Shown: positions 4,132 through 57,508 of the stretch, one piece after another | How the letters are laid out: each line of letters opens with the position of its first letter | Position numbering within the stretch: the stretch's first letter is position 1 | Assembly: GCA_017473115.1 (NCBI GenBank) | Contig: JAFUNC010000010.1 | Coordinates: 86,911-150,910 of the forward strand | DNA length: 64,000 nucleotides | Direction of reading: 5' to 3' | Source: Lachnospiraceae bacterium | GTDB lineage: Bacteria > Bacillota > Clostridia > Lachnospirales > Lachnospiraceae | Translations under genes and position numbers: made by a program | The notes under the pieces: model-generated | Seen by the model: only the letters and a program-made list of their open reading frames with translations | Database searches by the model: none | What the model was told of the DNA's origin: nothing

Positions 4132-4164
4132 ATTATACAATAACTGTATAGAGAAAAGCAAGCA
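4132..4164 (-). promoter_or_regulatory. Promoter of the phosphorylase gene with dyad over the -10
   Basis: Minus-strand TTGCTT (18 bp spacer) TATAAT. The -10 box (4132-4137) overlaps a perfect dyad TATACA-N5-TGTATA at 4134-4150 that could be a repressor site. The -35 lies inside the decamer TGCTTGCTTT (4155-4164), which recurs at the divergent promoter. Confidence 0.5.
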
Positions 4165-4601
4165 GAATTAGGCGAAAACGGCAAGGATTTCTTCAATATA
4201 ATATAAATAATTATGAATTTTATAAAATAACAGTTTTCACACATGAAATGCATAAAACAGAAGAGGGCTTAATAAAAATGATTAAGGGCGAAATATAAGT
4301 TTATGAAGAGAGACTTCTATAATATATGAAAAGAAAACATCGAGGTGGTTTTTAAAAATAAAATTATAAATGTGAGATGATTTTTTTCTATATAATAATA
4401 GACAATATAAGATGGATTTTTGATAAAATACCGGATGACTTCATATAAAAGCGGATATAAAATACTTTTATAAGAATAGAAAAAGACAGCCAATGACACA
4501 AAAATGAACAAAAAAACAATAAATTGTGAACAAAAAATGAACAAAAAACTATTAATATTCCACAAAAGTATGAATTTTATACAAAAATAACATAAAAATG
4601 C

Positions 4602-8191: not shown

Positions 8192-8226
8192 AAGGGACAG
8201 CGGATTTCTGCTGTCCCTTTTTTGAA
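8192..8226 (+). terminator. Terminator of the ABC transporter operon
   Basis: Ten-base stem AAGGGACAGC / GCTGTCCCTT with an 8-base loop and a run of T, 43 bp after the last permease gene. Confidence 0.9.
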
Positions 8227-8255
8227 TATATTGGACTTGTATAAATCATTGATAT

Positions 8256-8407
8256 TTCCGCATAGCATATTATAATTCCAACGGAACACGCTCGCGCTCG
8301 TTCGATTACGTAGCAGTACTAAACTCGCAGAGTATTTCATACCTGCTCGTCAAGTGCTGACGCAGTCGAAAACGGTTCTTTATGGAATTATAATATGCCA
8401 TGCGGAA
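8256..8407. repeat. Dispersed hairpin repeat, copy A
   Basis: 152 bp element whose ends are 25-base inverted arms (8256-8280 with 8383-8407, one mismatch) containing TATTATAATTCCA and its complement. The core after the left arm begins ACGGAACACGCTCGCGCTCG and ends GGTTCTTTA before the right arm. The core closely matches copy B at 57318-57456, and copy C at 25821-25957 in the opposite orientation, but the outer arm sequences differ between copies. It lies between a terminator and the DUF1700-like gene. It could be a small non-autonomous mobile element or a structured RNA. Confidence 0.75.
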
Positions 8408-8625
8408 TTTCATAGTGAAAATGTCTTATTCATTTTATATATTTAAGATAAAATAAAAGGAATCTGCTTTTGTATGTTCACAGTTTCTTCACTTGACAGT
8501 AAATGGAGAATTGGTTATGATTTACCCGGTATAAAATATCGAAATAGCATAAAAGATATATACACATGATAAATTATATATGATTATGATTAGTTTTTGA
8601 ATTGATAATACAGTGAAGGGTAATT

Positions 8626-14981: not shown

Positions 14982-15055
14982 CGGGGTGTGGCTCAGTTTG
15001 GTAGAGCACCTGGTTTGGGACCAGGGGGTCGCAGGTTCGAATCCTGTCACCCCGA
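14982..15055 (+). tRNA. tRNA-Pro (anticodon TGG)
   Basis: Acceptor stem CGGGGTG / CACCCCG, D arm GCTCAGTTTGGTAGAGC, anticodon stem CCTGG/CCAGG with loop TTTGGGA giving TGG, and T arm GCAGG-TTCGAAT-CCTGT. The 3' CCA is not encoded. Cotranscribed with tRNA-Gly 22 bp downstream. Confidence 0.96.
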
Positions 15056-15077
15056 GTACAATTTCATATTTTTACAT

Positions 15078-15148
15078 GCGGGTGTAGTTCAATGGTAGAA
15101 CATCAGCCTTCCAAGCTGAATACGTGGGTTCGATTCCCATCACCCGCT
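15078..15148 (+). tRNA. tRNA-Gly (anticodon TCC)
   Basis: Acceptor GCGGGTG / CACCCGC, anticodon stem TCAGC/GCTGA with loop CTTCCAA giving TCC, T arm GTGGG-TTCGATT-CCCAT. No CCA encoded. Its 3' end lies about 105 bp from the end of an integrase gene, so it is a candidate attachment site. Confidence 0.95.
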
Positions 15149-25426: not shown

Positions 25427-25456
25427 AATAGTTTGTACATAAAAGGAGATTCTAAA

Positions 25457-25789
25457 ATGAAAAAAACAATGTCTTGTATCTTAAGTTTTTTACCCACTGT
25501 TTTGATTGTGTTGGGTATGATTACATTAATTATTATTACCGGTTTCCAGAACAGCGGATTTGAAACCGGCGTGTTTGTAACCATTTTGCAGATTTTAGCG
25601 TTGATGGTTGAAATGGCAGGTTGGATTATGGGATTTGTAATGATGATTATTTACATTGTCAAAACCATCAAAAACAAAAATTTCAGCGTGGGAATCAAAA
25701 TTCTCTGGTGCGCATTGCTCTTTTATCTGAGCGTATTCTTATTCGCGATTCTGCCTGTTTACTGGTTTGTGGTAGTGCGCAAGGAATAG
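25457..25789 (+). CDS. Small membrane protein, second of a tandem pair
   Basis: 110 residues starting at the ATG after AAAAGGAGA; an earlier in-frame ATG at 25433 lacks a site. Membrane segments at about 9-30, 38-66 and 80-105. The end PVYWFVVVRKE matches the upstream gene's PVYWILYIRKE, and FSVGIKILWC matches FSVGMKVLWC. It is 30 bp after its paralogue, certainly the same transcript. A hairpin repeat (copy C) lies 31 bp downstream in place of an ordinary terminator. Confidence 0.7.
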   Translation: MKKTMSCILSFLPTVLIVLGMITLIIITGFQNSGFETGVFVTILQILALMVEMAGWIMGFVMMIIYIVKTIKNKNFSVGIKILWCALLFYLSVFLFAILPVYWFVVVRKE

Positions 25790-25820
25790 GTTTCATCCCT
25801 TACACATAATACAAAAACAA

Positions 25821-25957
25821 GGTGAGGAAGATATCTGTATTTCGAAGGGCGTTTTGGCTCCGTCGGTGCTTGGATTGCGTATTTTGCAATCCTATGCACC
25901 GCTACGTTGAGACAAGCGAGCGGGAGCGTCCCTGAGAAAACAGATATCTTCCTCACC
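25821..25957. repeat. Dispersed hairpin repeat, copy C (reverse orientation)
   Basis: 137 bp element with perfect 18-base inverted arms: GGTGAGGAAGATATCTGT at 25821-25838 and its complement at 25940-25957. Inside, reading the minus strand, GGACGCTCCCGCTCG corresponds to GGAACACGCTCGCGCTCG of copies A and B; on the plus strand GCGTTTTGGC and GTGCTTG and GCTACGT match the reverse complement of copy A. The arms share no sequence with those of A or B. It sits between convergent genes and may act as a terminator. Confidence 0.65.
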
Positions 25958-25975
25958 GTATTATTTATAAAAAAC

Positions 25976-26740
25976 CTATTTCTTCTGTTGATATACCGGG
26001 TCGGCAGGATAGCCGCCTTTTAATTTCTGCATGCCGCGTTGGATGGCGTCTCTGGAATTCTTCCAGTCTGCATCTTTGTTGCGGTAGTCAAATTTCTCTA
26101 CCAGCCAGGAAACGTCTTCCTGTAAACGGTCCATATGCTTGGTCTGTAACTCAAACATAGCCGGATAAAACTCTGCCTTTTGTTTATCGTTCAACTTACT
26201 TTCACCTGCTTCGCACAAATCGCCGAAGTGGTGGAGGCAGAAGCCTTTGCTGTTTTTTACTTTTTCTACGAATTCAGGGTCTCTTTTATACATAACGAAA
26301 AAGGTATCCAAATAACGCTCGTAGGTGTCTGCAAATCGTTTGCAGATATAGCAGGAAGCATCTTTCTCTTTTATCCAGGCTGCTACGGAATTCTTGCATT
26401 CCGGACCGGATTTGGCAAATTTGGAACGGAAGGTGGTTTTCTCGGGCTGATACTTCTTCATCACGTCCGCCATCTGCTTACGCATTTCCATATAATGTGT
26501 TTTCAAAATCCATGCATTACCCAATGTGTTGCCATAGTCGAACATCTTTTTGAAATGTGCACGGCAGAACCCCGCTTTGTCGGTGGCTTCACGGACATCG
26601 CTTTCCATGTAGGAAGAACCGGAGCCTAAGGCGAAGTCCAAAAGATCCTGTTCCACTTCGCGTTCCACAAAGCAAAACGGACATTCATCGTGGGCATTCA
26701 TTGCATCGTTTAAAGGTATGGTATATAACTGTTCTTTCAT
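25976..26740 (-). CDS. DUF6062-like protein with duplicated cysteine motifs
   Basis: 254 residues, no membrane segment. Two similar blocks occur: CPFC followed by GFCRAHF (about 21-63) and CYIC followed by GFCLHHF (about 131-172), suggesting an internal duplication with two metal- or cluster-binding sites (each CxxC plus CxxH). It resembles the DUF6062 family of Clostridia, of unknown role; that name is from memory of the pattern. The start is close to a dyad ATACAGCC/GGCTGTAT upstream. Probably in one operon with the gene at 26821-27528, 80 bp upstream. Confidence 0.7.
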   Translation of the reverse strand: MKEQLYTIPLNDAMNAHDECPFCFVEREVEQDLLDFALGSGSSYMESDVREATDKAGFCRAHFKKMFDYGNTLGNAWILKTHYMEMRKQMADVMKKYQPEKTTFRSKFAKSGPECKNSVAAWIKEKDASCYICKRFADTYERYLDTFFVMYKRDPEFVEKVKNSKGFCLHHFGDLCEAGESKLNDKQKAEFYPAMFELQTKHMDRLQEDVSWLVEKFDYRNKDADWKNSRDAIQRGMQKLKGGYPADPVYQQKK

Positions 26741-57309: not shown

Positions 57310-57317
57310 GTTGAGGG

Positions 57318-57456
57318 GCGGATGTTTTATATTCCAACGGAACACGCTTGCGCTCGTGCGAAAACGTAACGGATACTAAATTTGTACTGCATTTCATTTG
57401 TACTCATTAAGTACCGACGTTTTCACAGGGTTCCTTATGGAATATAAAACATCCGC
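57318..57456. repeat. Dispersed hairpin repeat, copy B
   Basis: 139 bp element with perfect 19-base inverted arms: GCGGATGTTTTATATTCCA (57318-57336) and its complement (57438-57456). The core begins ACGGAACACGCTTGCGCTCG and ends GGTTCCTTA, nearly the same as in copy A (8256-8407), while the middle has diverged. It lies directly after a terminator and upstream of spoVAA. Confidence 0.75.
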
Positions 57457-57508
57457 AAGTGACGCAACATAGTAAAAAGCAAGACAGGAAGAATGCGGTG
57501 GGTAAAAT

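Follow-up and report, generated by a model that had tools for sequence, protein, structure and literature searches.

What kind of element is the hairpin repeat near the start of the window (the whole stretch of 64,000 nucleotides analysed here), and how do its copies spread and change? Small palindromic repeats are common in bacteria, and their spread and per-site evolution are poorly known. The initial annotation described three copies (A, B and C), all intergenic and with a shared core, and proposed a MITE-like element or a structured RNA. All three are present where they had been placed, each between reading frames, and are recovered by a covariance model (Table 1). The model was built from 26 copies in the source genome (G000, a draft of 2.23 Mb in 23 contigs, 85% complete), with A and B included and C excluded. 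A search of that genome, as the annotation had suggested, gave 59 matches, 14 of which were weaker antisense matches at the same places, leaving 45 distinct places. With A alone as the blastn query, 25 further places were found in the genome; the idea that there are no more copies, or that the likeness of the core is due to chance, clearly fails. The claim of a shared core was confirmed for A and B, which are close relatives in sequence and carry the core as described. C lacks the GGTTCYTTA junction; it keeps the fold plus the GAGCGGGAGCGT/CTACGT parts, scores only 49 bits and is located between the ends of the convergent ORFs 25433–25789 (+) and 25976–26740 (-). Eight low-scoring copies (window 25820–25958 and L134–L140) form a C-type subfamily with a shorter apical stem devoid of the tandem G.A.

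Table 1 Positions of the repeat copies and associated features in the window.
Feature	Position	Strand	Basis
Copy A, core and mid arms	8259–8404	(-), sense strand	cmsearch 140.1 bits; same place as blastn self match
Copy B, core and mid arms	57316–57458	(-)	cmsearch 133.2 bits
Copy C, diverged subfamily	25820–25958	(+)	cmsearch 49.1 bits, E 3.6e-11
GNRA hairpin (sense strand GC-GCGA-GC) in copy A	8290–8297	(-)	Position read from sequence
Terminator second stem half and T-tract, with A inserted at its end	8210–8223	(+)	Read in sequence and empty-site alignment
Stretch of ~250 bp in the window that the orthologous site of G001 lacks	8223–8472	(.)	Boundaries exact to within a few bases; abuts the T-tract of the intrinsic terminator

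The family was present in 37 of the 99 genomes searched (G000 counted) under stricter filters, with which weak matches were lost. All 37 belong to one family, apparently Lachnospiraceae: 27 of 31 genomes of the genus (G000 included) and 10 of 30 from other genera of the family carried it, and none of 38 from other families of the order did. Genome G046 holds at least 150 matches to the covariance model (150 candidates scored, all of them matches). Five further genomes gave 139, 144, 102, 57 and 25 matches (150 candidates scored in each), and matches in these totals beyond those listed may include antisense ones. A pattern scan of named genomes detected at least 117 stretches; among the 80 loci listed, most are in one bin labelled uncultured Eubacteriaceae (CANRVK01) and the remainder are mostly in Lachnospiraceae-labelled bins. 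Two copies, with 56 and 58 bits, lie in contigs labelled Muribaculum sp. (JAMPGV; L234 5168–5303 and L282 4316–4451). That label would mean another phylum, and a mislabelled bin, contamination or transfer are the candidate explanations. No match was found in viral contigs searched with one exact pattern or in plasmids searched with one copy as the query. The element fits no Rfam family at curated scores. At the gathering thresholds no family covered any copy in the window, and searches of 14 loci at E values up to 5 and 2 gave only two overlaps, both at L003 and far below gathering (bicoid_3, 20.3 of 91 bits; BTnc005, 19.4 of 174.8 bits). The only Rfam matches at gathering in the window are the tRNA genes for Pro (tgg) and Gly (tcc) at 14982–15148.

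The strand that folds best is opposite to the one on which A was read (140.1 vs 24.5 bits). The consensus is a branched hairpin of 148 positions, and RNAalifold predicted 44 pairs from the 26 copies, 24 of them with compensatory changes on both sides. From the outside inward, each copy would consist of an outer arm (often self-complementary and locus-specific), a loop of ~15–18 nt per side, then the mid arm and, innermost, a ~80-nt core predicted to form a small side hairpin with a GNRA loop and an apical stem interrupted by U.U and tandem G.A mismatches. We tested a named structure including this side hairpin, with 43 pairs, one of which (a deliberately included A.G) never pairs. Its cells were paired in 95.5% of cases, compared with 28.7–42.7% when the structure was slid by one to three columns. 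Doubly changed cells numbered 127 vs 33 in shuffles and the covariation was 0.366 vs 0.169, while further pair types were not above shuffles (45 vs 43.6; 176 of 500). The GNRA loop and the U.U mismatch are constant among the 26 copies (26/26 each) and the tandem GA/GA is found in 25/26, the remaining copy having GA/AA. The consensus pairs contain 56 G.U vs 5 A.C, where 42 of the 56 G.U are at two nearly fixed G.U columns; between orthologues, the excess of G.U over A.C is small (99 vs 77). The covariation, together with the strand-specific non-Watson–Crick motifs, supports a single-strand fold. One strand matters in this fold, and the signal does not separate RNA from single-stranded DNA.

The arm sequences vary from the GTCCCAATTTG type, a terminal repeat common to a subset of copies, to wholly unrelated ones. 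In four genomes, the complementarity of a copy's own flanks exceeded the 99th percentile of the cross-copy values for 36 of 70 copies, with 34 below this threshold, and for 32 of the 70 the own 3' flank paired better than the 3' flank of every other copy. A search of G000 with the pattern of the commonest arm gave 14 sites, 11 beside known copies and 3 elsewhere. Nineteen orthologous copy pairs were compared over 1542 aligned paired positions, in counts that mix arms with swapped cores (see below): 95 double changes kept pairing vs 35 that did not, and single changes left 61 positions pairing and 141 broken. At the 12 loci common to G000 and its sister genome G001, the arms alone (546 pairs) showed 27 of 32 double changes still pairing, and single changes with 17 pairing and 48 broken. 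The arms therefore change together while remaining bound to the locus, owing either to selection or to correction inside the palindrome. Some outer arms resemble terminator-type hairpins, as at L107 (1025–1174) and L123/L145 (GCATCC..GGATGC; CCCGCCC..GGGCGGG).

Orthologous sites, a comparison that had been recommended at the outset, are occupied here and empty in relatives for both A and B. The A site of G001 consists of the terminator stem and T-tract followed directly by the next sequence, and is ~250 bp shorter; pieces 1–524 and 768–1133 of the blastn query adjoin there. Against G019, pieces 23–460 and 928–1374 are separated by 231 bases instead of 467 (~236 bases shorter), while the downstream sequence at the G027 locus is not alike. 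B is missing at the orthologous sites of G001, G019 and G027, and the covariance model found no match at E values up to 1 in the six loci of the relatives (three for A, three for B). The alignments with empty sites make insertion the probable origin of A and B. Inspection by eye showed no target duplication at the arm ends or at the empty site of A. The annotation had also placed each copy close to a gene end or terminator. Terminators do lie at A and B, but the association is only weakly general: among 70 copies, 17 had a detected terminator reading towards the copy and 10 one reading away, with a detector that missed the imperfect stem beside B. Targeting of terminators as a general rule was accordingly considered weak.

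The outer arms are bound to their loci, and the cores largely are not. This was examined at the 12 loci common to G000 and G001, with both flanks homologous, by comparison against 17 parsed G001 copies. The comparison excludes fifteen copies that the pattern failed to parse, namely six ordinary ones, seven C-type ones and two belonging to a further diverged type, and a slightly wider pattern gave the identical 31 and 17 copies. The orthologue was the best match for the outer arm at 10 of 12 loci, for the mid arm at 5 and for the core at 2; the ranks of the orthologous core among the 17 were 3, 15, 1, 8, 1, 16, 6, 5, 10, 2, 9 and 7. The identity of orthologues exceeded that of non-orthologues by 0.14–0.36 in the flanks; in the mid arms, the excess was 0.26 and 0.13 on the 5' side and 0.13 and 0.24 on the 3' side. 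At positions 32–110 the excess was -0.01 to 0.10; some core segments are too conserved for much excess, but the variable ones (50–71% between non-orthologues) also gave -0.01 to 0.10. Random pairing of the 12 loci (permutation) yielded z values of 9.1 for the outer arms, 5.1 for the mid arms and 1.8 for the cores. The core identity of orthologues was slightly above permutation (p 0.04), which indicates that some cores were inherited.

Comparison within the genome agrees with this pattern. Among 10 G000 copies, 25 pairs have cores at least 93% alike and outer arms 47% alike, vs 45% for all pairs. Specifically, the core of L003 is 99% like that of L009 and 70% like its own orthologue, while its outer arm is 77% like the orthologue and 48% like L009. 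At seven of the 12 loci, the core is 91–99% like another G000 copy in unrelated arms and 59–79% like the orthologue, although the paralogue, as the best of 30, is favoured in this comparison. With equal pool sizes, the nearest core for G000 copies was at 0.88 in the own genome vs 0.79 in G001 (own closer in 22/31); for G001 copies the values were 0.86 in the own genome vs 0.84 in the other (own closer in 8/17), and clustering is hardly visible. Of five further parsed comparisons involving G019 or G027, the two without G000 had similar cores (0.89 and 0.92). In the three pairs of G000 with G019 or G027 the core values were 0.76–0.78; the L142 locus supplied two of these pairs, in which the arms were hardly conserved either (0.53–0.54). 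L123/L145 are 0.98 identical across the whole element.

Judged from one genome pair, 12 loci and draft assemblies, resident copies seem to exchange cores while each locus keeps its outer arms. The exchange does not extend to all copies compared, and a burst in the G000 lineage may account for it. Between orthologues, the special motif positions (GNRA ends, A.G, U.U, GA/GA and UAC) changed in 2 of 234 cases vs 344 of 1420 elsewhere in the core. We dropped an interpretation of this constancy as selection in place, since swapped cores would give the same constancy; if cores are swapped, it tells us no more than that the special motifs are retained in the cores now in use.

Mosaics of arm and core could in principle arise from misassembly of repeats, as G000 and G001 (about 150 contigs) are both drafts and repeats of 100–150 bp are risky for short reads. 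Every mosaic, however, returns to its own locus on both sides, whereas an error in assembly would more likely lead into a different locus. The cores are self-paired and most of them differ in sequence. Alignment with the orthologue extends at least 470 bp into each flank at 11 of the 12 loci; at the remaining locus, it covers 205 bp on one side. An assembly artefact is therefore highly improbable.

The reading that we favour, and regard as reasonably probable, is that of a non-autonomous REPIN/MITE-like mobile hairpin element of ~190–250 bp, the cores of which spread by conversion-like exchange. The sense strand would fold as one long hairpin, and new copies would be inserted in trans by some enzyme recognising the folded single strand, in the manner of RAYTs with REPINs. 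Resident cores would be overwritten by conversion-like copying from other copies, and the conserved borders between mid arm and core may serve as the homology for this copying. Both alternatives of the initial annotation survive in part: the occupied and empty sites speak for mobility and the covarying fold for a structured single strand, but three hallmarks of MITEs, namely a terminal repeat conserved in all copies, a target duplication (by eye) and a related transposase, were not found.

A plain MITE would be inserted by the transposase of a DNA transposon, its arms decaying afterwards, and would exchange no cores; the differences between orthologous cores would then be fast compensatory drift. 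The size, the inverted arms, the intergenic positions with empty sites and the GTCCCAATTTG-type repeat of the subset are what such an element should show. Drift, however, fails to explain the seven cores that match a paralogue in unrelated arms far better than the orthologue, and this explanation was already strained by the core ranks, the identity profile along the element and the permutation results. Considering also that neither a transposase (neighbours and Y1 search) nor a target duplication (by eye) was found, we regard a plain MITE as unlikely. A somewhat better, still minor, chance is given to a third scheme, in which the core is the spreading unit itself: a dedicated single-strand or RNA-templated process would replace resident cores, so that the arms would be fixed addresses and the cores competing modules sweeping the sites of a genome. 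If cores do move between fixed sites, the sequence of a copy does not record its insertion history, and a process of short-tract exchange over ~80 nt remains to be found. Matched loci with different cores offer a ready test of whether the core sequence matters for neighbouring genes.

Close copies of the family are arranged mostly as divergent (-+) pairs. In the stretches fetched from G046, 31 of the 35 neighbours less than 2 kb apart were -+ and none was +- or ++; of 24 gaps over 2 kb, 18 were +-. A set of 17 stretches chosen for holding copies contained 67 matches in 257 kb. Among the 150 matches listed for G046, 14 of 16 pairs within 2 kb were -+. Among the 150 listed of 467 matches in the five other genomes, pairs within 2 kb were -+ in 9 of 11 cases and ++ in 2, and the orientation was mixed beyond 20 kb. 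All five close pairs in the named loci are -+, although these may overlap with the five-genome pairs. Most G000 copies are single. The spacers between the -+ pairs of G046 are mostly unique, with ~27–78 bp at the ends taken as element arm and two internal similarities of 52–129 bp; some hold genes (GNAT, DUF4291, flavin reductase and PTS EIIC). A divergent pair as one transposon with cargo was rejected because the spacer DNA is mostly unique and only some spacers contain genes. Three spacers of ~190 bp that are alike by eye were noticed across two other genomes (L246 1009–1200, L280 6564–6752 and L228 3566–3757), suggesting that a divergent pair may sometimes be moved or duplicated as a whole.

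REPINs and REP doublets are intergenic, non-autonomous and hairpin-forming, reach hundreds of copies and favour inverted doublets; their REP units are 20–40 bp long with a GTAG or CGTC tag (PMC3116915, PMC3733652). The present family is likewise intergenic, hairpin-forming and high in copy number, with inverted doublets (31/35 in G046 and 9/11 among the matches listed elsewhere). It differs from these descriptions in its unit of ~140–250 bp, its branched core, its variable arms, the core exchange and the absence of a detected RAYT, and CGTC occurs at the base of the inner stem, not at the terminus. No transposase family recurs beside the copies in the survey of neighbour genes, where only ABC ATPases, housekeeping genes and shared loci were recurrent. 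A Y1 transposase (PF01797) was found in none of the carriers G000, G018, G019 and G027 and once in G001, all being drafts in which loss is possible; as a mobiliser it was rejected since its presence does not follow the copies. A REPIN-like element moved by a RAYT (Y1 HUH transposase) that was lost or missed in the drafts would account for the long hairpins in inverted doublets, the intergenic spread and the copy number, in line with the REPIN features reported (PMC3116915). Against the missing Y1 enzyme, the lack of a short tagged repeat unit and the longer, branched units, it is very unlikely.

ERIC, Correia, BOX and RUP are small, palindromic elements. According to a review, these bacterial MITEs are intergenic, often in 3' regions, and vary in copy number between genomes (PMC10969869), and the present family resembles that description as a small structured intergenic repeat whose copy number differs among genomes. 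The traits of MITEs found here are a short non-coding element with terminal inverted repeats (the self-complementary outer arms of 36/70 copies) and insertion polymorphism (the empty sites of A and B). The family differs in its terminal arms, which are not shared by every copy, in the strand-specific GNRA and G.A motifs and in the apparent movement of cores among resident copies; no target duplication (by eye) or parent transposon was found. MRSC candidates such as MRSC-65-2 are described as having a covarying long stem, dozens of copies per genome and an inconsistent orientation to genes (PMC11109978). The present family shares these three features; by that description, the UYCCGG repeat of MRSC-65-2 is absent from our consensus (PMC11109978).

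The attC sites of integrons are single-strand hairpins of variable sequence in which pairing is kept. The family is similar in this respect, but its close copies are divergent while attC sites are arranged head to tail. A literature search, largely outside subscription journals, gave no recognisable description of elements of this sort in Lachnospiraceae, and none of core exchange. Overall, the family works like REPINs and other bacterial MITEs but departs from, or leaves open, the features that define each of them; what sets it apart is its variable self-complementary arms and the apparent core exchange.

The gene context bears on another explanation, that the copies are cis-acting structured RNAs (e.g., intercistronic or 3'-end elements that stabilise, end or process transcripts), multiplied by duplication and kept as useful place by place. 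The strand-specific fold and motifs are consistent with such a role, as are the arm double changes that keep pairing at shared loci (27/32). In the ten G046 stretches inspected, the elements bracket gene blocks whatever the gene direction, and seven of the eight C-type copies are downstream of a same-strand gene according to a rough ORF table; these placements, with the positions between transcription units, leave room for a 3'-end or insulating role. However, 44 G000 copies showed no consistent gene orientation: 17 were opposite/opposite, 10 same/same, 8 and 6 mixed, and 3 had one side missing (rough ORF table, with A and B counted once). The presence is also patchy among genomes and orthologous sites. 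A cis-acting RNA as the explanation of the family is thus improbable, at about the level of the plain MITE. Under the favoured reading of a mobile hairpin with exchanging cores, the location of copies between transcription units is consistent with an element that the cell tolerates, or that is of slight use to it at 3' ends, as an insulator or for topology. The density of about one match per 4 kb in the G046 parts inspected, which were chosen for holding copies, could shape the borders of transcription units and could spoil short-read assembly in these bacteria.

Two stretches contain further RNA features beside the copies. In L087 of G046, a T-box leader (1229–1447; 123 bits, above gathering) is located directly downstream of a sense-oriented copy (985–1122), with a promoter-like sequence, identified by eye, between them. 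In L267, the spacer of a divergent pair (4163–4559) contains an apparent tRNA gene (by eye), and inverted repeats of ~95 bp run inward from both copies.
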